Shown: piece after piece, positions 1,550-23,610 of the stretch
How positions within the stretch are numbered: the stretch's first letter is position 1
How the letters are laid out: each line of letters starts with the position of its first letter
Assembly (NCBI GenBank): GCA_040757205.1
Contig: JBFLXL010000014.1
Location: 1 to 35,788, forward strand
Origin: Bacillota bacterium
GTDB lineage: Bacteria; Bacillota; Desulfotomaculia; Desulfotomaculales; Desulforudaceae
Direction: 5' to 3'
Length of the DNA stretch: 35,788 nt
Translations under genes and position numbers: made by a program
Notes under the pieces: model-generated
What the model was told of the DNA's origin: nothing
The model's input: only the letters and a program-made list of their open reading frames with translations
Database searches by the model: none

Positions 1550-2692
1550 CTAAGCGCTGCTCCGGGGCGGCCGGGGGCCGAGAAACCAGTGGTAATGGCA
1601 CTCGAGGCGCCCGTTGTAAAGCTTGCGTTTTCGGTCCGCCCGCCGCCCGTACAGGCGCTCGAAGCCCCGGTGCGCGGTCAGGACGTAAACGGACCAGGTA
1701 TCGAGCCGGCTGAAGACCCGGCCCATTTCGGCATAAAGCCTCTCCACGGCCGCTTCTTCGCCCAGCCGTTCCCCGTAGGGCGGGTTGCAGACGACGCAAC
1801 CGTACTTGAGCCAGGAGCGGAAGTCTGCAAGGGGACGCCGGTGGAAGCGCACTTGTTCCTCCACTCCGGCTTCCCGGGCGTGGTAGCGGGCCAGGCTGAG
1901 CACCTCGCCGTCAGTATCCGCGCCCTCGATCTGCAACTCGCGGTCGTGAGCGATGGCGTGACGGGCGGCCGCCCGCGCCTCTTTCCAGAGCGCCGCCGGA
2001 ATCACCGGCCAGTGTTCGGCGGCGAACTCCCGCCCCAAACCCGGGGCGATGTTCAGCCCGATCAGGGCCGCTTCGATGGGGATGGTGCCCGACCCGCACA
2101 GGGGATCGACGAGCGGCCGGTCGGGCCGCCAGTAGCTGAGCTGCACCAGGGCGGCTGCGAGCGTTTCCTTCAGCGGGGCGAGGGCGGCCAGTTTGCGGTA
2201 GCCGCGCTTGTGCAGGCCGGCGCCGCTGGTGTCGATGGTCAGGGTGGCCTCGTCCTTCAAAAGCGCCACCTCGATGGTGTAGCGCGGCCCGTTCTCCTCG
2301 AACCACTCGCGGCGGTAGCGCCGTTTCAGCTTCTCCACCACGGCTTTCTTCACGATCGCCTGGCAGTCCGGCACGCTGAACAACTTCGACTTGACGGACT
2401 TGCCCTGCACCGGGAACGCGGCGTCGGCCGGAAGCCATTCCTCCCACGGCAGGGCCTTGGTCCGTTCAAAAAGCTCGTCGAAAGTAAGCGCCTGAAAACC
2501 GCCCATTTTCAACAGCACCCGGTCGGCGCTGCGCAGCCAGAGGTTGGCGCGGCAGATGGCCGCCGGAGCGGCTTTGAAAATGACCCGGCCGTTTTCGACG
2601 GTTACGTCTTGGTAACCGAGGTTTTGCACCTCACGGGCGACCACGGCCTCCAGGCCGAAGCCGGCCGTGGCGATCAGCTCAACGTTATCCAT
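1550..2692 (-). CDS. rlmL: THUMP-domain 23S rRNA (guanine-N2) methyltransferase, RlmL/YpsC type
   Basis: This protein is predicted to transfer a methyl group from S-adenosylmethionine to a guanine in 23S rRNA. It has 380 residues from the ATG at 2692. An N-terminal NELIATA-like segment and THUMP region (about 45-155) are followed by a Rossmann methyltransferase domain with the SAM motif DPLCGSGTIPIEA at about 196-208 and the catalytic NPPYGER motif at about 303-309. Length and motif order match the single-domain Firmicute enzymes rather than the fused E. coli RlmKL. The start at 2692 is chosen because family members begin just before (D/E)LIATA and GGAG lies 7 bases upstream. An extended TTG start at 2749 is possible but unlikely. 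The leader holds two further copies of the start region (see repeats 2681-2827). Confidence 0.9.
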   Translation of the reverse strand: MDNVELIATAGFGLEAVVAREVQNLGYQDVTVENGRVIFKAAPAAICRANLWLRSADRVLLKMGGFQALTFDELFERTKALPWEEWLPADAAFPVQGKSVKSKLFSVPDCQAIVKKAVVEKLKRRYRREWFEENGPRYTIEVALLKDEATLTIDTSGAGLHKRGYRKLAALAPLKETLAAALVQLSYWRPDRPLVDPLCGSGTIPIEAALIGLNIAPGLGREFAAEHWPVIPAALWKEARAAARHAIAHDRELQIEGADTDGEVLSLARYHAREAGVEEQVRFHRRPLADFRSWLKYGCVVCNPPYGERLGEEAAVERLYAEMGRVFSRLDTWSVYVLTAHRGFERLYGRRADRKRKLYNGRLECHYHWFLGPRPPRSSA

Positions 2693-2759
2693 AAACTGAC
2701 TCCGAACCAAACTTGATCGTCCGAATTTGTCGGCGCTCTTCGGGTTCAACGTTATTCAT
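2685..2759 (-). CDS. Upstream small ORF 2, overlapping the rlmL start
   Basis: The middle start cassette opens a 24-residue frame beginning MNNVEPEERRQIRTIK. Its TAA stop (2687-2685) lies inside codons 2-3 of rlmL, so a ribosome finishing this frame terminates next to the rlmL ATG. This geometry allows translational coupling. The peptide has no recognisable family, so it may be a leader peptide or a duplication by-product. Confidence 0.35.
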   Translation of the reverse strand: MNNVEPEERRQIRTIKFGSESVYG

Positions 2760-2778
2760 AGTTGACTCCAAACGTAAC

Positions 2779-2817
2779 TTACACTATCAGTTTTGTATTT
2801 TTTACAACGTTATTCAT
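2779..2817 (-). CDS. Upstream small ORF 1 of the rlmL leader (12 codons)
   Basis: The outermost start cassette opens a 12-residue frame, MNNVVKNTKLIV, ending in TAA at 2781-2779. GGAG lies 6 bases upstream of its ATG. It is AT-rich compared with its surroundings. It may be a translated leader peptide or only a by-product of the duplication; translation cannot be judged from sequence alone. Confidence 0.3.
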   Translation of the reverse strand: MNNVVKNTKLIV

Positions 2818-2979
2818 GGTTGACTCCGGACTCCCCGTCAATACCACCTTGCCAAAGTGCCGAAGCCGTTTGCTTGGGGCCCCGGACATCGCCATTGGCG
2901 CCGCCGCGTGTTGGGCAACGCCCGGCGCGCGGAGGTGACCGGCGTGGAGGCGGTATGCGCAATGGGCTCGGCTCACGAG

Positions 2980-11390: not shown

Positions 11391-12272
11391 ATGGCGGAGC
11401 CGGAAGTGTATGATGTGGCGGTAATCGGCTGCGGGCCGGCCGGTCTGTCGGCGGCCCTGAACGCGGCGGTGCGGCGCAAAAAGGTGATTCTCTTCGGGGG
11501 GGAGTTCTGTGTATCGAAAGTGAACCGGTCCCCGCGGGTGGACAATTTCCTGGGCCGGCCCGGGGTCACCGGCGAGGCGCTGCACCGGGAGTTTGTCGCG
11601 CACGTCCGGGAATTTAACATTCCGATGGTCAACAAGCGAGTGATCAACGTTTTTCCGGACGAGGACGGATTGTTCGGCCTGGCGATCAAAGACCGCATCC
11701 ACCGGGCGCGCACGGTGATCCTGGCGGTGGGGATGGCCGTGGCCCGGACGCTGGAGGGGGAGGAGGTCCTGATCGGGCGCGGCGTCAGCTACTGCGCGAC
11801 CTGCGACGGCCCCTTATTTCAAGGGAAAACGGTGGCGATCATCGACTACACCAGGGAAGGCATCGAAGAGGCCGTATATATGGCCGGCTTTTGTACCCGG
11901 GTTTACTACGTGTGCATGCATACCGAGCCCCCGCGCTTTGAACAGGAAAACATCGAGCTGCTCAAGGGGATGAAGCCGGTCCGAATCCTGGGCGCGGACG
12001 GTACGGTGAGCGCGCTGGAACTGGATAAGCGGACCGTCGAAGTCGAGGGCGTGTTCGTTTTCCGGGAAGCCTTTCCGCCGCAGGACCTGGTGCCCGGCCT
12101 GGAGTTGGAAGGCAACCACATCAAGGTCGGCCGGGGTATGGAGACCAGCATCCCCGGGATCTTCGCTGCCGGGGACTGCACCGGCAAACCTTACCAATTG
12201 GGCAAGTCGGTGGGGGAGGGGCAGGTGGCCGCGCTGCACGCGGTCGCTTATCTGGATGCCGCGGGCAAATGA
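11391..12272 (+). CDS. Thioredoxin-reductase-like flavoprotein lacking an NADPH-binding motif (FFTR/DTR-like)
   Basis: This 293-residue FAD protein has the N-terminal dinucleotide motif GCGPAGLSAA (13-22), the redox-active C135-A-T-C138 followed by DG, and the C-terminal FAD motif AAGDCTGKPYQLGKSVGEG. All match the thioredoxin reductase fold. The second Rossmann site, usually GGGNSA plus a downstream HRR that binds NADPH, is replaced by IIDYTREG (about 150-157) and CMH. Loss of this site together with the PYQ..K..GEG ending is the hallmark of ferredoxin-dependent (FFTR) and deeply rooted (DTR) thioredoxin reductases. It may therefore take electrons from ferredoxin instead of NADPH. The ATG at 11391 has a weak GGCGGA site. 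No thioredoxin gene is adjacent. Confidence 0.8.
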   Translation: MAEPEVYDVAVIGCGPAGLSAALNAAVRRKKVILFGGEFCVSKVNRSPRVDNFLGRPGVTGEALHREFVAHVREFNIPMVNKRVINVFPDEDGLFGLAIKDRIHRARTVILAVGMAVARTLEGEEVLIGRGVSYCATCDGPLFQGKTVAIIDYTREGIEEAVYMAGFCTRVYYVCMHTEPPRFEQENIELLKGMKPVRILGADGTVSALELDKRTVEVEGVFVFREAFPPQDLVPGLELEGNHIKVGRGMETSIPGIFAAGDCTGKPYQLGKSVGEGQVAALHAVAYLDAAGK

Positions 12273-12314
12273 GTCATGCTAACCAAAACAACTCGCTATG
12301 GCGTTAGGATGGGT

Positions 12315-13037
12315 TTAGAGGATTTTGCTCAGGAACGACTTGGTGCGCTCTTCCCGGGGGGAGGTGAAGATCTCGGAGGGCAGGCCTTCTTCCACAATTT
12401 TGCCGTCGTCCATGAAGAGCACGCGGTCGCCGACTTCGCGCGCGAAACCCATCTCGTGCGTGACCACCACCATGGTCATTCCGTCACGCGCCAGGTCCTT
12501 CATCACCGCCAGGACCTCCTTGACCATCTCCGGGTCCAGGGCGGACGTGCACTCGTCAAACAGCATTACCTTCGGCTGCATCGCCAGGGCGCGGGCGATG
12601 GCCACCCGCTGCTGCTGACCGCCGGAAAGCTGCCCGGGGTAGTTGTCGGCCTTCTCCTGCAAGCCCACCTTCTCCAGCAGCGACCGGGCCCGTTCTTCGG
12701 CCTCGGCCCGGGAAAGCCGGGCCACCTTGAGGGGTGCCAGCATGATGTTCTGAATGGCTGTCTTGTGCGGAAAGAGGTTGAACAACTGGAACACCATGCC
12801 GACTTTCTGCCGCATCTTGTTGATGTTCGTACGCTTGTCGGTGAGCGACACGCCGTCGATGATGATCTCGCCCCTGGTCGGCTCTTCCAGGAGGTTCAAA
12901 CAGCGCAAAAAAGTGCTCTTGCCCGAACCGCTGGGACCGATGACGCAGACCACCTCGCCCTCCTTCACCCGGCAATTGATGCCCTGGAGCACTTTCAGGG
13001 ACTTGAAGTCCTTGTAAAGGTCCCTAACTTCGATCAT
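12315..13037 (-). CDS. glnQ: Polar amino-acid ABC transporter ATPase
   Basis: This 240-residue ATPase energises amino-acid uptake. It shows Walker [10 protein letters not shown] (34-42), [13 protein letters not shown] (Q-loop), the signature [15 protein letters not shown], Walker B VMLFDE and the H-loop THEM. Length and the [19 protein letters not shown] ending match the GlnQ/HisP/ArtP group. The usual FDEPTSALDPE reads [11 protein letters not shown]: residue 163 is Cys. The ATG start overlaps the end of the permease gene by 14 bases, with GGAGG 10 bases upstream inside that gene, so translation is probably coupled. It is convergent with the flavoprotein gene. The precise amino acid transported is not determinable. 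Confidence 0.92.
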
Positions 13038-13731
13038 CGGTCTTGAGCCTCCTTTCCAGCCAGTCCACGATGCGCGAAAAGGCGAGGGTCATGATCAGGT
13101 AGATCATGGCCACCGCGAACCAGACGGCCGCGGACTGGTAGTTCACGGCGATGATCAGTTGGCCCTTGCGCGTCAGCTCCTCTACGCCGATCACGGAGAG
13201 CAGCGAGGTGTCTTTCAGCATCGCGATGAACTCGTTGCCCAAGGGCGGGATCACCCGCTTGAAGGCCTGAGGCAGAATCACGTAGCCCATGGCCTGGTTC
13301 TGGGTCATGCCCAGGGAGCGCGCGGCCTCCATTTGACCCCGCTCGATGGACTGCACCCCGGCCCGGAAGATCTCGGCGATGTACGCGCCGCTGTTCAGGC
13401 TGCAGCCGAGGACCGCGATCCAGTACCGCGACAAGTTGCTGACGTCGACCATTTTCGGGATGCCGTATTCATTCAGCAGGTGGACCTGACCCATCTCGAT
13501 CACCTGCGGCAGCCCGAAATAGAGCATGAAGATCTGCACCAGCAGGGGTGTGCCCCGAAAAAAGTCGACGTAGCCGGTGGCGAGGTAGCGCAGCACTCGG
13601 CTCCGCGACAGGCGGCAAAGCCCGGCAAAGAGCCCGATGATACAACCGAAGCCGACCGAAAGGACGGTGATCTGGAGGGTCAGTTTCGCGCCGACCAACA
13701 GAAGGGGCAGCGCGTCGAGGATTACCTGCAA
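13024..13731 (-). CDS. glnP: Polar amino-acid ABC transporter permease
   Basis: This 235-residue inner-membrane permease has about five transmembrane helices. It carries the [15 protein letters not shown] motif of the HisMQ family and the EAA loop ([22 protein letters not shown]) that docks with the ATPase. The start is TTG at 13731 with GGAG 9 bases upstream. It overlaps the ATPase gene by 14 bases and is separated from the binding-protein gene by a strong hairpin (13759-13796). A single permease gene suggests a homodimeric channel. Confidence 0.92.
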
Positions 13732-13758
13732 AGGATTTCACTCCAGGGCGGTCAAACG

Positions 13759-13796
13759 CGAATGTGCGCGACACCGGGTGGTGTCACGCACATTCG
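13759..13796 (-). promoter_or_regulatory. Intercistronic 17-bp hairpin between glnH and glnP
   Basis: CGAATGTGCG-CGACACC, loop GGGT, then GGTGTCA-CGCACATTCG pair over 17 positions with one mismatch. On the minus strand this follows the glnH stop and has no U-run. It is therefore more likely to stabilise the upstream message or partly attenuate read-through than to be a full terminator, giving more binding protein than permease. Confidence 0.7.
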
Positions 13797-13809
13797 AGAG
13801 ACCAGGCTG

Positions 13810-14622
13810 TTAGAACTGCAGAATCGTGTCCGGCGGCTCCTGACCAAACCAGTCCATGTAGATCCGGTCGAAGGTGCCGTTTTCCTTCAGGGTCTTCAGG
13901 GCGCCGTTGATCTCGTCCAGGAGGTCCGGCTTGGCCTTGGGCACGGCGATGCCGTAGAACTCGCCGGTCAGGAGGCCGCCGACCACCTTGACGTCGTCAT
14001 TGCCCTGCTGGATGAAGTACAGGGTGACCGGGGCATCGTTGATGACGGCGTCGACCGCGCCTTTCTTCAGTTCCAGGAAAGCCAGGTCGATGGTGTTGAA
14101 GGTGGTAATCTTGGCGTCCGGCACTTCCTCGGCCTTCAGCGCGCCGGTGGTGCCGATCTGGACGGCGATCTTCTTGCCGGCCAGGTCCTCAAAACCATTG
14201 ATGTCGTTGTTGTCGGCCCGCACCGCGGTGATGAGGCCCGACTCGTAGTACGCCTCGGAGAAGTTGACCACTTTGGCCCGCTCTTCGGTGATGGTCATGG
14301 CGGAGATGGCACAGTCCACACTGCCGCTCTGCAGCGCCGGGATGATGCCGTCAAAGCCCATGCTGATGATCTCGACTTCTTTTCCTAACACCTCACCGAT
14401 CGCGCGGATCAAATCCATGTCAAAGCCGACGTAGGTGGGCTCTCCCGGCCCGCCCTGCATTTCAAAGGGGGCGTACGCCGTGTCGGACGCAACCGTCAGT
14501 TTGGTTGTTTCCGGGGCCGGAGCGGGAGTGGGGGTCTGCTGGCCGCCGCCACAACCGACGACCACGAACAAAAAGGTGACCAGAAAGAACAATGCTAGGA
14601 CTTTTTTGTTAACCTTGGGCAA
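13810..14622 (-). CDS. glnH: Amino-acid-binding lipoprotein of the ABC importer
   Basis: This 270-residue solute-binding protein has a lipoprotein signal peptide ending in VVVGC with the lipidated Cys at about 24, then a Thr/Pro/Ala linker. The family 3 binding-protein fold includes TVASDTAYAPFEM, GFDMDLIRAIGE, DGIIPALQSG and CAISAMTITEERAKVVNFS, typical of glutamine, arginine or general polar amino-acid binders. The start is TTG at 14622 with AGGAGG 7 bases upstream. It leads the importer operon, followed by permease and ATPase. The upstream region is long and holds inverted repeats and a promoter candidate. The ligand is inferred only as a polar amino acid. Confidence 0.92.
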   Translation of the reverse strand: MPKVNKKVLALFFLVTFLFVVVGCGGGQQTPTPAPAPETTKLTVASDTAYAPFEMQGGPGEPTYVGFDMDLIRAIGEVLGKEVEIISMGFDGIIPALQSGSVDCAISAMTITEERAKVVNFSEAYYESGLITAVRADNNDINGFEDLAGKKIAVQIGTTGALKAEEVPDAKITTFNTIDLAFLELKKGAVDAVINDAPVTLYFIQQGNDDVKVVGGLLTGEFYGIAVPKAKPDLLDEINGALKTLKENGTFDRIYMDWFGQEPPDTILQF

Positions 14623-14672
14623 GATTTTCCCTCCTCTCGTTTTCCCGAGCTAGTAGAAAGTCAAACTGGGGC

Positions 14673-14829
14673 GTACCCTTAAACTATTTGCTTCCTCAAC
14701 CTCCTTTCAAGCCGCTCAAAAATGCCCAACTTTCATAATTCGCTTTTAAGACTGAGATTCCTGCCCAAAATCGAGCCGGTTTTACATCTCTTGACTTTAG
14801 CAGGTGTCAATGTCAGAATTTAAGGGTAC
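14673..14829. repeat. Widely spaced 11-base inverted repeat in the glnH upstream region
   Basis: GTACCCTTAAA (14673-14683) is perfectly inverted as TTTAAGGGTAC (14819-14829). The enclosed 157-base stretch has no gene. It could be a degenerate miniature mobile element or a distal pairing in the glnH leader. Confidence 0.35.
14781..14810 (-). promoter_or_regulatory. Candidate promoter for glnHPQ
   Basis: On the minus strand TTGACA (14810-14805) is a perfect -35 box, followed after 18 bases by TGTAAA (14786-14781), which matches the -10 consensus at 4/6. It would give a leader of roughly 150 bases before glnH. The spacing and weak -10 box keep confidence low. Confidence 0.3.
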
Positions 14830-15018
14830 TTCGAAATTGGGCGAACAAGACGTGGCGCCCACCAGAATGCAAAAAATTACCGCTCCGTTGCCCGCCACCC
14901 GGACCCCGCCGGCCTTGGGCCGGAATCAGAGGGTAGAGGTTGAACCGCAAAAAGAATAGATTGATGCCAAAATCAGGGCATGCTACCTTTAAGTACGTAT
15001 GCTGGAGGATATCAGGAT

Positions 15019-15084
15019 ATGGATTTGAGAGAAGCGGTGATCCGTTTTCACTTCGGCGAGATGGTGAGAGAGTGTTTGGTCTGA
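15019..15084 (+). CDS. Possible 21-residue small ORF upstream of the EamA gene
   Basis: An ATG at 15019 with GGAGG 11 bases upstream opens MDLREAVIRFHFGEMVRECLV and stops with TGA at 15082-15084, ten bases before the EamA start. It may be a leader peptide coupled to EamA translation. Alternatively it is a remnant of a transposase N-terminus, since the wording recalls helix-turn-helix starts. No family is recognised. Confidence 0.3.
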   Translation: MDLREAVIRFHFGEMVRECLV

Positions 15085-15093
15085 GGCCGGGCA

Positions 15094-16038
15094 ATGGGTG
15101 AGGCGGTAAGCCGGGCTGCCCCGGGCCCCGAAAAGCCTTTCGTCAATCCTTACCTGGCGATCGTCATCGGGGTGGCGGCCGTCTCTTTTTCGGCGATCTT
15201 CACCAAACTGGCGGAGGCGCCGCCCCTGGTAATCGCGTTTTACCGCCTCGCCTTTACCGTGTTGCTGATTATGCCTTTTGCGCTCGACCGGGCCGGACAC
15301 CGGGAACTGAAGCAGATTTCGGGCCGTGACCTGGCTCTGGCCGCCCTGGCCGGCCTGCTTCTGGCGGCGCACTTCGCGGTCTGGATCTCCTCCCTGAACT
15401 ACACCACCGTGGCTTCCTCAACTATCCTGGTCACTATGCAGCCCCTGTTCGTGGTCACCGGGGCTTACCTGTTCCTGAAGGAGGGGCTGACCGCCCGGGC
15501 GTTGGCCGGCGCGGGGCTGGCCCTGACCGGCAGCGTCCTGATCGGCGTCAACGATTTTCAGGTGGGCGGAACGGCGCTGTACGGCGACCTCCTGGCCTTC
15601 TCCGGGGCCTTCTTCGTGGCCGGCTACGTGCTGATCGGCCGGAGCCTGCGCGCCCGACTGCCCATCGCGACCTACACCTTCGTGGTTTTCGGCACCGCGG
15701 CGGCGGCGCTGCTTTCCGCCAACCTGGCCACGGGCACCCCGCTCTATCCTTACCCCGGGCAAACTTGGGCCTGGTTTTTGGCCTTGGCCTTGATTCCGAC
15801 CATTCTGGGGCACATGGTTCTCAACTGGTCGTTGCGCTATGTAAAGGCAGCCGTCGTCTCGGTGAGCATCCTGGGCGAACCGGTCGGAGCCACCATCCTG
15901 GCCTACTTCATTTTCGCCGAGGTGCCGGGTGCTCTGCAGCTTGCCGGTGGTGCCGTGATTATCACCGGCCTATGCGTCTTCAGCACCTCGGTGGCCGGGC
16001 CGGGGAGACATGTGCCGGAAGAAGCGCGCCGGACCTAG
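15094..16038 (+). CDS. EamA/DMT-superfamily transporter
   Basis: This 314-residue integral membrane protein has about ten transmembrane helices arranged as two EamA repeats (roughly 15-150 and 165-300). Markers are FSAIFTKLAEAPPLVIAFYRL in the first helix pair, LNYTTVASSTILVTMQPLFV, and in the second repeat SLRYVKAAVVSVSILGEPVGATILAYFIFAEVP. These proteins usually export or exchange small metabolites such as amino acids. GAGG lies 7 bases before the ATG at 15094. It precedes the liv operon by 186 bases on the same strand, which fits a role in amino-acid traffic, but the substrate is unknown. Confidence 0.88.
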   Translation: MGEAVSRAAPGPEKPFVNPYLAIVIGVAAVSFSAIFTKLAEAPPLVIAFYRLAFTVLLIMPFALDRAGHRELKQISGRDLALAALAGLLLAAHFAVWISSLNYTTVASSTILVTMQPLFVVTGAYLFLKEGLTARALAGAGLALTGSVLIGVNDFQVGGTALYGDLLAFSGAFFVAGYVLIGRSLRARLPIATYTFVVFGTAAAALLSANLATGTPLYPYPGQTWAWFLALALIPTILGHMVLNWSLRYVKAAVVSVSILGEPVGATILAYFIFAEVPGALQLAGGAVIITGLCVFSTSVAGPGRHVPEEARRT

Positions 16039-16224
16039 GCCCGGAAGATACTCCCTGACCGCTAAAATGGGGAACTCCGGCAGGAAAACCGGAACATGCC
16101 GTTGAAAGAACTCACGTTATGGAGTTTTGTCCAGAGCATTGGAACCCGGAACCTGGGGGGTGAGAAGGGGTTCCCGGTCTTTTGCCGGCGTGTTGCTTTT
16201 AAACGGAATTAAGGAGGCACACAG

Positions 16225-17397
16225 GTGTACAGAAGAAGTAGGATTACCGCGCTCATCATCACCCTACTGTTCGTGTTCGGCGTCGTTGCCGGTTGCGGCG
16301 GCGGCGGGACCCCCACCCCCCAGGCGGAAGAGACCATCAAGATCGGTTTCCTCGGCGCCAAGACCGGGGGTCACGCGAGCTACGGCATTGAGACCCTCAA
16401 GGGAATGCAGATGGCCGTTGATGACCTCAACGCGGCCGGCGGTCTTCTGGGCAAAGAATTGGCAATTGTGGAAGACGACCACCGCAGCACCGGCACCGAA
16501 GGCGCAAACGTCACGCAGAAGCTGATCACCGAGGGTGTCGTCGCCATCGTCGGCGACCCGACCACCGGCATCACCAAGATCGCCGCGGAGATCGCCCAGG
16601 GAGCGGGCGTGGTCCTGATGTCCGCGGGTGCCGTGGGCGAAGGCGTGGTGGAAATCGGCGATTACATCTACCGCAACACGCTGCTCGACCGGGTGGGCGC
16701 GCCGGCGGTGACCAAGTACCTGGCTGAGGAGCTCGGCTGGAGCAAAGTGGCGCTGGTGACCTCCACCAACAACGACTACAGCGTGGGCTTAAGCAAGCTC
16801 TTCCGTGACAGCCTGCAAGTGAACAACGTTGAGATCGTCGCCGAGCAGAGCATCCAGGACGGCGACCAGAGCTTCGCCGCCCAGGTTACCGCCCTGAAGC
16901 AGAACACGTTCGACGGGATTATCTTCACCGGTTACTACACCGAGGGCGGCCTGTTCATGAAGGAAGTGCGCGCCCAGGGCCTGGACCACGTCATGGCCGG
17001 CGGTGACGGCCTGCTTTCGTCGGTCCTCTGGGAACTCGGTGAGGCCGCGGTGGAAGGCAGCATGGTCTACACCGGTTTTGCCGTTGACCTTGGCGGCGCA
17101 AGCCCCAAGACGCTGGAATTCATCAACAAGTACCAAGCCGAATACGGCAAGCTGCCCGACATGTTCTCCGCCCAGGGTTACGACGCCGTGATGCTGATCG
17201 CGGACGCCATCGTCGCCGCCAACAGCGCGGCGCCGGCCGACTTCAAGGAAACCCTGAAGCTCACGGCCGACTGGGAAGGCGTCTCCGGAACCATCACCTT
17301 CGGTCCCGACCGGGAGCCGATCAAGAGCCCGGTCTACCTGCTGGAGGTCAAAGACGGCGACTGGGCCGTCAAAGCCGTTATCCCCGTGGATATGTAA
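16225..17397 (+). CDS. livJ: Branched-chain amino-acid ABC transporter binding lipoprotein
   Basis: This 390-residue periplasmic-binding-protein-like lipoprotein has a signal peptide with lipobox VVAGC (Cys about 24) and a Gly/Thr/Pro linker. The type I binding fold contains IKIGFLGAKTGGHASYG, MAVDDLNAAGGLLGK and FSAQGYDAVMLIADAI. It delivers leucine, isoleucine or valine, or related amides, to LivHM. The start is GTG at 16225 with AAGGAGG 7 bases upstream. It leads a complete livJHMGF operon. The 72-base gap to livH contains a hairpin that could favour binding-protein production. In some anaerobes such proteins bind urea or short-chain amides, so the ligand is inferred. Confidence 0.92.
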   Translation: MYRRSRITALIITLLFVFGVVAGCGGGGTPTPQAEETIKIGFLGAKTGGHASYGIETLKGMQMAVDDLNAAGGLLGKELAIVEDDHRSTGTEGANVTQKLITEGVVAIVGDPTTGITKIAAEIAQGAGVVLMSAGAVGEGVVEIGDYIYRNTLLDRVGAPAVTKYLAEELGWSKVALVTSTNNDYSVGLSKLFRDSLQVNNVEIVAEQSIQDGDQSFAAQVTALKQNTFDGIIFTGYYTEGGLFMKEVRAQGLDHVMAGGDGLLSSVLWELGEAAVEGSMVYTGFAVDLGGASPKTLEFINKYQAEYGKLPDMFSAQGYDAVMLIADAIVAANSAAPADFKETLKLTADWEGVSGTITFGPDREPIKSPVYLLEVKDGDWAVKAVIPVDM

Positions 17398-17415
17398 CGT
17401 CCGGTGACCCGATTT

Positions 17416-17449
17416 GCGGCGGCCATTGCCTTTGCGCAGTGGCTGCCGC
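17416..17449 (+). promoter_or_regulatory. Intercistronic hairpin between livJ and livH
   Basis: GCGGCGGCCA (17416-17425) pairs with TGGCTGCCGC (17440-17449) over 10 positions including one G-U pair, followed by TTTAAG. It lies after the livJ stop and before the livH ribosome site, and may act as an attenuator or as an mRNA-stabilising end for livJ. Confidence 0.6.
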
Positions 17450-17469
17450 TTTAAGTGTGGAGGCCGCAG

Positions 17470-18351
17470 ATGGATCTGCAGACGTTCTTGCAGCAGCTGT
17501 TAAACGGAATCACGCTCGGCTCGGTCTACGCGCTCATCGCCCTGGGTTATACCATGGTGTACGGCATCATCAAGCTCATCAATTTCGCCCACGGTGACGT
17601 GTACATGATCGGCGCCTTCGTCGGGCTGACCGCGGTCGTGCTCGGCGCCGACGTCTGGCTCGCCCTTTGCGCGGCGATGCTGGCCTGCCTGATCGTGGCC
17701 GTGAGCATCGAACGCGTGGCCTACCGTCCCCTGCGCGGCTCCACCCGCTTGGCCCCGCTGATCTCCTCGATCGGCGTTTCTATTTTTATTCAGACGCTGG
17801 TCACCCTGATCAAAGGCCCTCAGCCCGTGGGTTTTCCCCAGGTGGTTAAGAACACCATCTACACCGTCGGGCCGCTGCACATCTCCACCGTCCAGATTGT
17901 GATTCTCCTGGTGGCCGCCGGCCTGATGGTCACTCTCCAGTTGGTCATCCGGCGGACTAAAATGGGCAAAGCCATGCGGGCCACCTCCGAAGACCTGCAC
18001 ACCGCCGGCCTCATGGGCATCAACGTGAACGCGGTGATCTCCTTCACCTTCGCCCTGGGTGCGGTGATGGCGGGGGCCGGAGGGGTGCTGGTGGGCATGT
18101 ATTTCAATTCCGTTTTCCCGCTGATGGGCGTCATGGCCGGACTCAAGGCGTTCTGCGCCGCCGTGGTCGGCGGCATCGGCAGCGTGCCGGGCGCGGTGCT
18201 CGGCGGGCTTTTCCTGGGTGTGGCCGAGGTGCTCGGGGTGGCCGCCGGTTTCGGGAGCTACCGGGACGCCATCGCCTTCGGGCTCCTGATCCTGGTCCTG
18301 CTGATCCGGCCTGCGGGCCTTTTGGGCCAGCCGCAGCAGAGAAAGGTGTAG
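17470..18351 (+). CDS. livH: Branched-chain amino-acid ABC transporter permease LivH
   Basis: This 293-residue permease has about eight transmembrane helices. It begins with LQQLLNGITLGSVYALIALGYTMVYGIIKLINFAHGDVYMIGAF, the signature start of the LivH family, and ends with GGIGSVPGAVLGGLFLGVAE. The start is ATG at 17470 with GGAGG 6 bases upstream. Its 3' end supplies the ribosome site for livM, which starts only a few bases downstream, so the two subunits are probably made in equal amounts. Confidence 0.93.
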   Translation: MDLQTFLQQLLNGITLGSVYALIALGYTMVYGIIKLINFAHGDVYMIGAFVGLTAVVLGADVWLALCAAMLACLIVAVSIERVAYRPLRGSTRLAPLISSIGVSIFIQTLVTLIKGPQPVGFPQVVKNTIYTVGPLHISTVQIVILLVAAGLMVTLQLVIRRTKMGKAMRATSEDLHTAGLMGINVNAVISFTFALGAVMAGAGGVLVGMYFNSVFPLMGVMAGLKAFCAAVVGGIGSVPGAVLGGLFLGVAEVLGVAAGFGSYRDAIAFGLLILVLLIRPAGLLGQPQQRKV

Positions 18352-18355
18352 CGTG

Positions 18356-19255
18356 ATGGACGACCTGATCCGCGAGTTCATCAACCCGTACCACGTCCAG
18401 GTCCTGATCCTGCTCGGGATTTTCCTGATCGCGGCCCTGGGGCTGCACCTCATCACCGGGGTGACCGGGCAGCTCTCGTTCGGCCACGCCGCTTTCCTGA
18501 GCATCGGCGCCTACACCGCCGCGCTCATGAACTTGCGGTTGGACCTGCCGTTTCTGGCCTGCCTCTTGGCGGGGGCCGTCGTGGCCGCCCTGGCCGGAGT
18601 GCTGGTGGGGTTTCCGAGCATGCGGCTCACCGGCGACTACCTGGGCATCGCCACGCTGGGCTTCGCCGAGATCGTGCGCGTGGTGTTCATGAACCTGGAG
18701 ATCACGGGCGGGGCCCGCGGCTTGGCCGGGATCCCCCGGGAGACGAACCTGGTCACCGTCTACGTGCTCGTGATCCTGACCGTCTGGGCGATGTACCGCC
18801 TGAACCACTCCCGGTTCGGCCGGGCGCTGGTCGCCATCCGGGAGGACGAGATCGCCGCCGAGTGCATGGGTATCAAGAGCCTGTGGTACAAGGTGGGGGC
18901 GTTCGCCATCGGCTCGTTTTGCGCCGGCCTGGCCGGCGGGCTCTACGCGCATCTCCTGCAGTACCTGAACCCGGCGGACTTCGGGTTTGCGCGTTCCTTC
19001 GAGATCCTGTGCTTCGTGGTTTTGGGCGGCCTGGGCAGCATCGCGGGCGCGGTGCTCGGCACCACGATCCTGACCATCGCGCCGGAAATGCTCCGGTTTT
19101 CGGCCGAGTACCGGATGATGATGTACGGGGTCCTGATGGTGCTCATGATGATCTTTCGCCCCGGCGGGCTCCTGGGCGGGGTAGACCTCGTGGCGAGCTT
19201 CAGGCTCCTGTGGTCGCGGCTGAGAAACACCGCCACACCGGCCGGTGGGGCGTAG
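18356..19255 (+). CDS. livM: Branched-chain amino-acid ABC transporter permease LivM
   Basis: This 299-residue membrane subunit has LHLITGVTGQLSFGHAAFLSIGAYTAAL near the N-terminus, GDYLGIATLGFAEIVRVVF and the EAA-type segment AIREDEIAAECMGI that contacts the ATPases, all typical of LivM. It starts at ATG 18356, four bases after the livH stop; the adjacent GTG at 18353 is an alternative. AAAGGTG within the end of livH serves as the ribosome site. Confidence 0.92.
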   Translation: MDDLIREFINPYHVQVLILLGIFLIAALGLHLITGVTGQLSFGHAAFLSIGAYTAALMNLRLDLPFLACLLAGAVVAALAGVLVGFPSMRLTGDYLGIATLGFAEIVRVVFMNLEITGGARGLAGIPRETNLVTVYVLVILTVWAMYRLNHSRFGRALVAIREDEIAAECMGIKSLWYKVGAFAIGSFCAGLAGGLYAHLLQYLNPADFGFARSFEILCFVVLGGLGSIAGAVLGTTILTIAPEMLRFSAEYRMMMYGVLMVLMMIFRPGGLLGGVDLVASFRLLWSRLRNTATPAGGA

Positions 19256-19274
19256 GTTAGGGAGGTGGGGGCGG

Positions 19275-20045
19275 ATGCCCGAGGTCCTGCTTGAACTGGA
19301 AAGCGTGACGGTGAACTTCGGCGGGCTCACCGCGGTGCAGCAGTTGGACATGAACATCGAGTCCGGCTCCATCAGGGCCCTCATCGGCCCGAACGGGGCG
19401 GGGAAGACCACGGTCTTCAACGTGGTCACCGGTATTTTCCGCCCGAGCTCCGGGAGCATCCGGTTCCGGGGCCGGGACATCACGCGCCTGAATCCTTACG
19501 ACATCGCCGCCGCCGGGATTGCCCGCACCTTCCAGAACATCCGCCTGTTCAAGAACGCTTCGGTGCTTGACAACGTCAAGGTGGGCCGCCATTCCCGGGG
19601 CAAAACCAACGTCCTGGGTGCGCTCATCCGCTACCCCGGGTTCAAGGCCGAGGAGCGGGATATGACCGGGGCGTCGCTGTCGGCCTTGGAACTGGTGGGG
19701 CTCGCCCGCAAGAAGGACGAACTGGCCAAAAACCTCTCCTACGGGGAGCAGCGGCGCCTGGAAATCGCGCGCGGCCTGGTGTCCGAGCCGGCACTTCTTT
19801 TGCTGGACGAACCCGCCGCCGGGATGAACCCGCAGGAAAAGCAAAGCCTTTTACATCTGATCAAGCGGATCCAGGAACAGGGCATCACCATCTTTCTGGT
19901 GGAGCACGACATGAAATTCGTGATGGCCCTCTCCCAGAAGATCACCGTGTTGGACTACGGACGGAAGATTTGCACCGGGACCCCGGCGGAGGTCCGGGCC
20001 GACCCGCGGGTGATCGAGGCTTACCTGGGGAAGGAGGTGGGGTAG
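19275..20045 (+). CDS. livG: Branched-chain amino-acid ABC transporter ATPase LivG
   Basis: This 256-residue ATPase has Walker A GPNGAGKTTVFN, IARTFQNIRLFKNASVLDNV (LivG-type Q-loop region), the signature LSYGEQRRLEIARGL, Walker B LLLLDEPAAGMNPQE and H-loop VEHDM. The LSYGEQ signature and AAGMNP are diagnostic of LivG rather than LivF. The ATG at 19275 has GGAGGTG 7 bases upstream. Its TAG stop overlaps the GTG start of livF. Confidence 0.93.
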   Translation: MPEVLLELESVTVNFGGLTAVQQLDMNIESGSIRALIGPNGAGKTTVFNVVTGIFRPSSGSIRFRGRDITRLNPYDIAAAGIARTFQNIRLFKNASVLDNVKVGRHSRGKTNVLGALIRYPGFKAEERDMTGASLSALELVGLARKKDELAKNLSYGEQRRLEIARGLVSEPALLLLDEPAAGMNPQEKQSLLHLIKRIQEQGITIFLVEHDMKFVMALSQKITVLDYGRKICTGTPAEVRADPRVIEAYLGKEVG

Positions 20046-20752
20046 TGCTGCTGGAACTCGACAACATCTCGGTTAACTACGGCAGCATTGAGGCTCTGAC
20101 CGGTGTGTCCTTGACGGTGAACGAGGGGGAAATCGTCGCCCTGATCGGGGCAAACGGCGCCGGGAAAAGCACCACCCTCTGGACCATTTCCGGCCTGGTC
20201 CGTGCCCGCAAAGGGCGGATTTTGTTCGACGGCCGGGACATCACCCGCGCCTCGCCCAGCAAGGTCGTGGCCATGGGCATCAGCCATGTGCCCGAGGGGC
20301 GCCGGGTATTCACCACCATGTCGGCACAGGAGAACCTCGAGATGGGCGCATACGTGGCGAGAGGAGGGCGGGAAACACGAGAGGCTATGAAGCGGGTTTT
20401 CGGACGCTTCCCGCGCCTTCTGGAGCGTCGCCGCCAGTTGGCCGGCACTTTGAGCGGCGGGGAGCAGCAGATGTTGGCCATGGGGCGGGCCCTGATGTCC
20501 AGGCCCAAGCTTTTGCTGATGGACGAGCCGTCCATGGGGCTCGCCCCGATGCTGGTGCGGGAAATCTTTGCCATTATCAGGGAACTTAATGAACAGGGGA
20601 CTACCATTCTCCTCGTGGAACAAAACGCCCACATGGCCCTGTCCGTCGCCCAGCGCGCCTATGTGCTGGAGACCGGGCAGATCACTCTTTTCGGGCCGGC
20701 GGCCGAACTGACCGGCAACCCGGACGTGCGCCGGGCCTACCTGGGCATTTAG
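20045..20752 (+). CDS. livF: Branched-chain amino-acid ABC transporter ATPase LivF
   Basis: This 235-residue ATPase has LNxI-type start LLELDNISVNYGSIEAL, Walker A GANGAGKST, SHVPEGRRVFTTMSAQENLEMGAY (LivF hallmark), signature LSGGEQQMLAMGRALM, Walker B LLLMDEPSMGLAP and H-loop VEQN. It starts at GTG 20045, sharing one base with the livG stop in TAGTG, with GGAGGTG upstream. It is the last gene of the liv operon. No clear terminator follows; only a weak GGCGC/GCGCC hairpin lies at the stop. Confidence 0.93.
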   Translation: MLLELDNISVNYGSIEALTGVSLTVNEGEIVALIGANGAGKSTTLWTISGLVRARKGRILFDGRDITRASPSKVVAMGISHVPEGRRVFTTMSAQENLEMGAYVARGGRETREAMKRVFGRFPRLLERRRQLAGTLSGGEQQMLAMGRALMSRPKLLLMDEPSMGLAPMLVREIFAIIRELNEQGTTILLVEQNAHMALSVAQRAYVLETGQITLFGPAAELTGNPDVRRAYLGI

Positions 20753-20962
20753 GCGCCGGCCAATGCGCCGATCACCCTCCCCCGAGAATAGGCCTTACGC
20801 CGGAATCAGCTCTTGCCGGTTTTATGCGTACCGTGCCTGTAAGGAGCGTAGGTGGTGCCCGCCCGGAGCGGAGGCGCGTGCCCGTCAGGGGCGTATGCGC
20901 GTAGGGCTCCTTCCGTATTTGGCCCGAGCCGGAAAAAGATTTGCTCTTGCCCGAGACAACGT
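20753..20962. other. Gene-free stretch after livF
   Basis: No gene is recognised here. A 7-base inverted repeat (AAGGAGC 20841-20847 and GCTCCTT 20906-20912) encloses a GC-rich segment. Together with 20963-21117 this makes a 365-base gap between livF and the ABC-2 exporter. Confidence 0.5.
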
Positions 20963-20969: not shown

Positions 20970-20985
20970 ATAGCTATATGAATGC
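20963..20985. promoter_or_regulatory. Palindromic candidate operator
   Basis: GCATT-ATATAGCTATAT-G-AATGC: a perfect 12-base palindrome (20968-20979) flanked by inverted GCATT/AATGC arms with one unpaired G. It overlaps a promoter candidate upstream of the exporter genes and could bind a dimeric regulator. Confidence 0.4.
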
Positions 20986-21080
20986 ATGCCGGAAGACTGC
21001 TGCACCCTATGATCGGCACCCCCAGGTGGAAGGCATAGAACGCATAGCTTCATGAACGCATACCGGAAGGCTGCTGCACC
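20968..21080 (+). repeat. Duplicated 39-base unit upstream of the ABC-2 exporter
   Basis: The segments 20968-21006 and 21042-21080 match at 32 of 39 positions and start 74 bases apart. Both contain ATGAA(T/C)GCAT(G/A)CCGGAAG and CTGCTGCACC. Each opens a short frame beginning MNA(C/Y)RK(T/A)AAP: 20978-21055 (25 residues) and 21052-21105 (17 residues). The first stops within the second start (ATGA overlap). Neither has a clear ribosome site, so translation is doubtful. Confidence 0.65.
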
Positions 21081-23509: not shown

Positions 23510-23544
23510 GTATTGGTAACTCCCTTTAAAAGCACGTCTGAGGC

Positions 23545-23610
23545 GCGACCGCCGGTCACATGGTCTATTTCCTCTAAGGAGCGATCTCCGGTCACATGGT
23601 ATATTTCCTC
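23545..23610 (-). repeat. 36-base tandem duplication spanning a stop codon
   Basis: Unit one (23545-23580) and unit two (23581-23610, partial) share CCGGTCACATGGT and TATTTCCTC, with 22 of 23 core positions identical. The right copy contains the end of the gene at 23592 (YTM then TGA); the left copy is a non-coding echo of that gene end. Confidence 0.75.

Follow-up and report, generated by a model that had tools for sequence, protein, structure and literature searches.

The leader of an rlmL-like gene in a Desulforudaceae genome carries three copies of one translation start, and this leader has probably been hit twice by off-target Cas1-Cas2 integration, the start unit being the duplicated target site. 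With somewhat less assurance we extend this reading to the genome at large: stray CRISPR integration appears, on balance, to be a regular and heritable natural mutation process in this Desulforudis lineage, leaving about 4 scars per 100 kb, growing one- and two-spacer arrays at gene boundaries, and making leader ORFs and doubled starts. The evidence comprises the anatomy of the leader, a relative with a single copy, the geometry of similar sites genome-wide, empty sites in related genomes, spacers derived from the chromosome itself, a G at the repeat borders, and the presence of cas1, cas2 and cas4. The window analysed here is the whole stretch of 35,788 nucleotides (contig JBFLXL010000014.1 of assembly GCA_040757205.1, forward strand) from a draft genome of 26 contigs (G000), and plain coordinates refer to it.

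The triplicated start of rlmL

The features of the gene and its leader are as follows; the two short ORFs are readings of the sequence, and the terms target site, spacer and repeat are those of the proposed mechanism.

1550..2692, minus strand: rlmL-like 23S rRNA (guanine-N2)-methyltransferase, 380 aa (RlmKL model, E 1e-81)
2680..2710, minus strand: putative target-site copy 3 ('repeat 3'), TTGGTTCGGAGTCAGTTTATGGATAACGTTG; holds the real rlmL start; presumed oldest copy; one 1-nt insertion
2685..2759, minus strand: short ORF from copy 2, MNNVEPEERRQIRTIKFGSESVYG, 24 aa
2711..2746, minus strand: putative inserted 'spacer' 2, AACCCGAAGAGCGCCGACAAATTCGGACGATCAAGT; taking repeat 3 as 31 nt, its length is 36 nt; no match found
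2747..2769, minus strand: putative target-site copy 2 ('repeat 2'), 23 nt, of which 22 agree with copy 1; relative to a 30-nt repeat, the initial 7-8 nt are missing or diverged
2770..2804, minus strand: putative inserted 'spacer' 1, TAAAAAATACAAAACTGATAGTGTAAGTTACGTTT, 35 nt; no match found
2779..2817, minus strand: short ORF from copy 1, MNNVVKNTKLIV, 12 aa and stop
2805..2834, minus strand: putative target-site copy 1 ('repeat 1'), GGAGTCCGGAGTCAACCATGAATAACGTTG; 30 nt assuming the 30-bp geometry, of which 23 nt (2805-2827) are matched by copy 2

Although the gene product matches the RlmKL model at E 1e-81, it falls under the curated cut-off of that model, and Trm14 matches too. On the minus strand 5' of the gene the unit GGAGTCA-spacer-ATG-(A/G)AT-AAC-GTT occurs three times (copy 1, 2806-2827; copy 2, 2748-2769; copy 3, 2681-2703), so that the three complete initiation signals described in an earlier note on this DNA are indeed there. 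Copies 1 and 2 are the same at 22 of 23 bases, which agrees with their description as near-identical (21/22 by the former count), while copy 3 (GGAGTCAGTTTATGGATAACGTT) is longer by one base in its spacer and departs further from the other two. The methyltransferase starts only from this innermost copy (ATG 2692), again as had been noted. The ORF from copy 2 stops within the rlmL start (ATGGATAA), with an overlap of 8 nt. Copies 1 and 2 are spaced 58 bp apart, and copies 2 and 3, 67 bp. The DNA between the copies had been called unrelated, and this stands: the outer interval is about 35-36 nt at 25% GC and the inner about 36-44 nt at 52% GC, with no likeness between them. When the window was simulated 100 times with a second-order Markov model, no 21/22 pair arose at a distance of 30-150 bp.

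The start unit is present nowhere in the G000 genome beyond these three places, and at no other gene start. The suggestion of a small mobile or recombining start element, for which a search of other gene starts had been advised, is thereby rejected. What was inserted is most likely the pair of unrelated spacers of 35-36 nt, the start copies being target-site duplications. The window contains no Rfam match, the leader has no promoter or relevant terminator match, and its fold is nothing unusual when set against shuffled sequences (z 0.27). No source for the rlmL spacers was found in their own genome, in 113 genomes of the order, or among phages and plasmids, nor in IMG/VR by exact 20-21-mers. 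The hxlA plasmid matches and the matches to Burkholderia phage (E 0.4) were dismissed as chance; a match on contig C3 to the upstream intergenic DNA, in GC-rich coding DNA, is apparently chance as well.

The locus in related genomes

Genome G001 (the same as UBA911) belongs to the same genus and its RlmL is 95% identical. Its rlmL leader has a single copy of the unit (GGAGTTCGGAGTCAACCATGGATATGGATAACGTT) without insert, and copy 1 of the window is continuous with that leader (GGAGTTCGGAGTCAACCATGG). The third member of the genus, G002, is complete in one contig of 2,349,476 bp; rlmL is absent at the corresponding place and was not found in that genome, and other genes follow the adaptor gene in D. 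audaxviator (G002:C1 after 1204399). The leaders of more distant relatives are unrelated. With G001 as the one informative relative, a gain in G000 would be the simpler reading of the site, and a loss in G001 the less simple one. The earlier note had held that one copy and random leader sequence in relatives, with no initiation at the outer copies, would make this a chance local duplication; G001 does have one copy, and local duplication is treated below among the alternatives.

Spaced repeat pairs in the genome

Solitary pairs consisting of repeat, unrelated spacer and repeat were collected from 1.26 Mb of the 2.03 Mb of G000 (ca. 62%), taken as stretches to which the L-numbers refer. Repeats had to be ≥20 bp long, ≥90% identical, of few copies elsewhere and 25-400 bp apart; detection was ungapped, and borders may be off by at least one base. 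The pattern surfaced in a background scan that was meant for a chance estimate. There are 74 such pairs, and 47 of them lie 64-79 bp apart from start to start, the other 27 being scattered over the 360 distances that are left in the range 25-400 bp. A few of the 47 are plain repeats or belong to the real array on contig C10, and three were left out of the border and location tests.

The distances form two modes. The 65-67 bp mode (n=12) has repeats of 30-31 bp in 7 of 12 cases, with 35-36 bp between them. In the 69-78 bp mode (n=35) the best-preserved repeats measure 36-40 bp and the longest 37-40 bp, with 33-39 bp between; many pairs at 69-79 bp have repeats shorter than 37 bp, a point against the proposed mechanism for which divergence is the sole explanation offered. 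Well-defined sites thus have a repeat of 30-31 or 36-39 bp and an insert of 33-39 bp, and the target sequence differs from site to site. The control genomes G030, G039 and G004 have no pairs at 64-79 bp; G005 has two, those of G037 and G006 resemble repeats inside genes, and the complete genome G002 holds two examples of such sites. The earlier judgement that a single tandem duplication is insufficient agrees with the unrelated spacers and with the same anatomy at dozens of sites in G000: something was inserted.

Location and borders are also distinctive. Gene boundaries or intergenic DNA hold 32 of 44 sites, as against 24% of random segments, a bias that suggests the survival of those scars whose duplication left both neighbouring genes intact. 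Among the 19 repeats with clear borders, 18 have a border G on one strand, compared with 53% of random segments (p=1e-4); off-target sites of Streptococcus thermophilus Cas1-Cas2 in vitro likewise favour G (PMC6895254). The 37-bp-class repeats resemble the 37-bp CRISPR repeat weakly and at the ends only (p=0.002), and no likeness to CRISPR repeat ends was detected for the 30-bp class (p=0.38). Further sites with three 'repeats' occur in G000 at L146:7171-7370, L156:11983-12180 and L152:1522-1660; the repeats of the first two have a GAAAC end, like CRISPR repeats.

Insertions with empty counterparts

Seven insertions, at rlmL and six other sites, have a single-copy empty site in a relative. Those at L130:7948, L130:4256 and L130:19632 correspond to a single copy in both G001 and G002; that at L130:9532 is present in G001 and absent from G002; L139:2289 is a single copy in G002. 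The sixth is a second site within the window (features without strand), where the alignments of the flanks to G001 overlap by exactly 37 bp across 20970-21080:

20970..21006: putative target copy A, 37 nt; a single 37-bp copy in G001
21007..21043: putative inserted spacer of 37 nt, CTATGATCGGCACCCCCAGGTGGAAGGCATAGAACGC; G001 lacks it
21044..21080: putative target copy B, 37 nt; 32/37 identical to copy A; lies directly in front of an ABC-transporter ATPase frame

At L132:5001-5220 (G000 contig C3) there are 0 spacers in G002, 1 in G001 and 2 in G000, and therefore such loci grow one unit per step; spacer 1 of this locus is also in G001. Likewise the same spacer is found in G000 and G001 at L127:3315. 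Three spacers are self-derived: those at L138:4752 (30/31 aligned nt) and L208:11729 (36/38) match distant places on the chromosome, and that of L143:16204 has a weaker match to a distant locus of its own genome (33/37). G001 and G002 each have extra DNA at the counterpart of L130:9367-9403, in G001 (C36:33862-33976) as an apparent 37-bp duplication 78 bp apart; this place is possibly a hot spot.

CRISPR-Cas content

Two CRISPR repeats have been published for Candidatus Desulforudis audaxviator MP104C (PMC5217627), and G002 carries both. The array with the 30-bp repeat (GTTTCAATCCCTCGTAGGTAGGCTGGAAAC) has a period of 65-68 bp (G002), and that with the 37-bp repeat (CTTTCAGTCCCCTTTTCGTCGGGTCGGTCGCTGAAAC) a period of 71-77 bp (G001, G002). 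Contig C10 of G000 encodes cas1, cas2, cas4, csa1, csa2 and cas3 and gives a weak match for cas6; at its end the 37-bp repeat stands twice. Neither the 30-bp repeat or its array nor the Cas1 of that system was found in G000, the second Cas1 being in G002 only. The 65-67 bp mode would therefore need a system that has been lost or is unassembled.

Proposed origin of the leader

Cas1-Cas2 is put forward as the agent because it best explains the anatomy. It would have joined a captured fragment of about 36 bp to a non-CRISPR site overlapping the rlmL start codon and its ribosome-binding site; two staggered strand attacks followed by gap repair would double a target of about 30 bp. With the 30-mer GGAGTYCGGAGTCAACCATGRATAACGTTG as the target, a first insertion would leave two copies, 1 and 3, at a distance of about 66-67 bp, and a second fragment entering the upstream copy would give copies 1 and 2. 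This order of the two events would explain why copies 1 and 2 are the most alike, since the second insertion duplicated the upstream copy. The outcome would be a two-spacer 'neo-array' (copy 1, spacer 1, copy 2, spacer 2, copy 3) in which a translation start serves by chance as the 'repeat'. From the innermost copy rlmL would go on being started, and the outer copies would open short ORFs of 12 and 24 codons, which may or may not be translated. The tripling of the start signal is most likely a mere side effect, and an influence on the expression of rlmL would be hypothetical.

The assignment of the leader to the class of sites described above is suggested by its geometry. The fit is good at 67 bp, an interval within the 65-67 bp mode, both spacers being 35-36 nt on that reading; it is imperfect at 58 bp, which fits neither mode unless copy 2 has lost its first 7-8 nt or has diverged there. 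Several features expected of off-target products were found in this genome: an insert of spacer length within a duplication of repeat length, relatives with empty sites, cas1 and cas2, and G at the borders.

Alternative explanations

The leading competitor, though unlikely, is ordinary local duplication, by which slipped-strand or template-switch copying would have copied the start region twice with filler between. It is consistent with the single copy in one congener, G001, with the 58-bp spacing outside the CRISPR modes, and with the existence of plain tandem duplications in G000, at L130:11538 (98 bp) and at 23537-23608 of the window (36 bp). Slippage, however, would not be expected to leave unrelated spacers of 33-38 bp or spacers taken from distant loci, nor to give two sharp modes of the period, and the controls G030, G039 and G004 lack pairs at these distances. 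The 98-bp tandem duplication (L130:11538-11740) has two copies in G000 and apparently three in G001.

Capture of a fragment during Ku-dependent end joining of staggered double-strand breaks, the duplication being the filled overhang, is very unlikely. Ku is encoded in G000 and G002, and fill-in with capture also yields a duplication and filler, but end joining has no ruler and leaves the duplications of 30 or 37 bp and the periods equal to those of CRISPR arrays without a reason.

Slightly more improbable still is a functional leader under selection, in which two uORFs with ribosome sites would regulate rlmL by translational coupling or attenuation. Every copy has a full SD-ATG, the second ORF ends within the rlmL start, and genes for 23S rRNA methyltransferases are known to be controlled by leader peptides (PMC6851288, PMC11264731). 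Against this, the arrangement is absent from the only close relative, the leader folds no better than its shuffles, the enzyme is a housekeeping RlmL-like one and not Erm, and the same anatomy recurs at many unrelated sites. Selection on extra initiation sites, as the earlier note had proposed, accordingly has no sign in its favour, G001 having one copy. A leader-peptide attenuator was discarded on the same grounds (absence in G001, fold z 0.27, no Rfam match), as was a canonical CRISPR array at rlmL, each site having its own repeat, the unit being unique and the window being free of Rfam matches.

An assembly artefact, with short-k-mer misjoins at a 22-bp overlap, is conceivable in a 26-contig draft but scarcely credible, since sites are common to the independent assembly G001 (L127:3315 with the same spacer, L132:5001 spacer 1, L130:9532) and two examples occur in the complete genome G002.

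Comparison with known systems

Off-target integration by Cas1-Cas2 remains the preferred reading, and it has a laboratory counterpart. In the 2018 work of Nivala, Shipman and Church (Nat Microbiol 3:310) off-target insertion reportedly duplicates the target to give repeat-spacer-repeat loci. Such 'non-canonical' integration was obtained there by overexpressing Cas1-Cas2 in E. coli, as two other sources describe (PMC11788318, PMC9456107). The sites in G000 are alike in that short captured fragments lie outside arrays and the target is duplicated. They differ in that the E. coli system was an overexpressed type I-E and that of G000 is of a different CRISPR type, and in being fixed in a natural genome, 47 in 1.26 Mb, and partly common to several species.

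With the Desulforudis CRISPR arrays the sites share repeat and spacer lengths, and therefore periods, as well as unique spacers and unit-by-unit growth; unlike those arrays they have a 'repeat' of local DNA and only 1-2 spacers, without a leader and without cas genes nearby. Leader-peptide attenuators (erm; B. subtilis yxjB/tlrB) also place short ORFs and ribosome sites before an rRNA methyltransferase gene, but the rlmL leader is without a conserved peptide, a supporting RNA structure or conservation in G001. Target-site duplication around inserted DNA is likewise seen in the direct repeats that flank transposons; at the G000 sites, in contrast, the duplication measures 30 or 37 bp, and the inserts, only about 36 bp long, share neither ends nor genes.

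Off-target integration is known from overexpression and in vitro; what would be new, if the mechanism is as proposed, is the preservation of dozens of scars in a natural genome. A search of open-access literature, most subscription papers being outside that scope, turned up no natural genome described as carrying such scars so densely. If true, the sites would document under natural conditions the frequency with which Cas1-Cas2 misses its array, its preferred targets, the DNA that it takes up and the way in which new CRISPR loci could arise. They would also account for puzzling doubled starts and short spaced repeats that might otherwise be misread as regulatory.

Additional observations

The first ca. 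50 bases of G000 contigs C1, C7 and C13 (L124, L157, L210) are the same sequence, AGGGGGTGACATTTTCTCAGGCCA, which has 9 copies in the sample and is a repeated element that breaks the assembly at contig starts. A high-copy palindromic element, AAAAAGGGGGACAGTCCCCCTTTTT, is found at many G000 loci, e.g. L130:1872, L132:4417, L136:15947 and L142:4714. Some 8.5 kb of the window (ca. 12270-20798) have almost no counterpart in the syntenic contig of G001 and are likely an island. Lastly, L131:17919-18080 contains an array of four-base tandem repeats of more than 70 bp, possibly a phase-variable tract.
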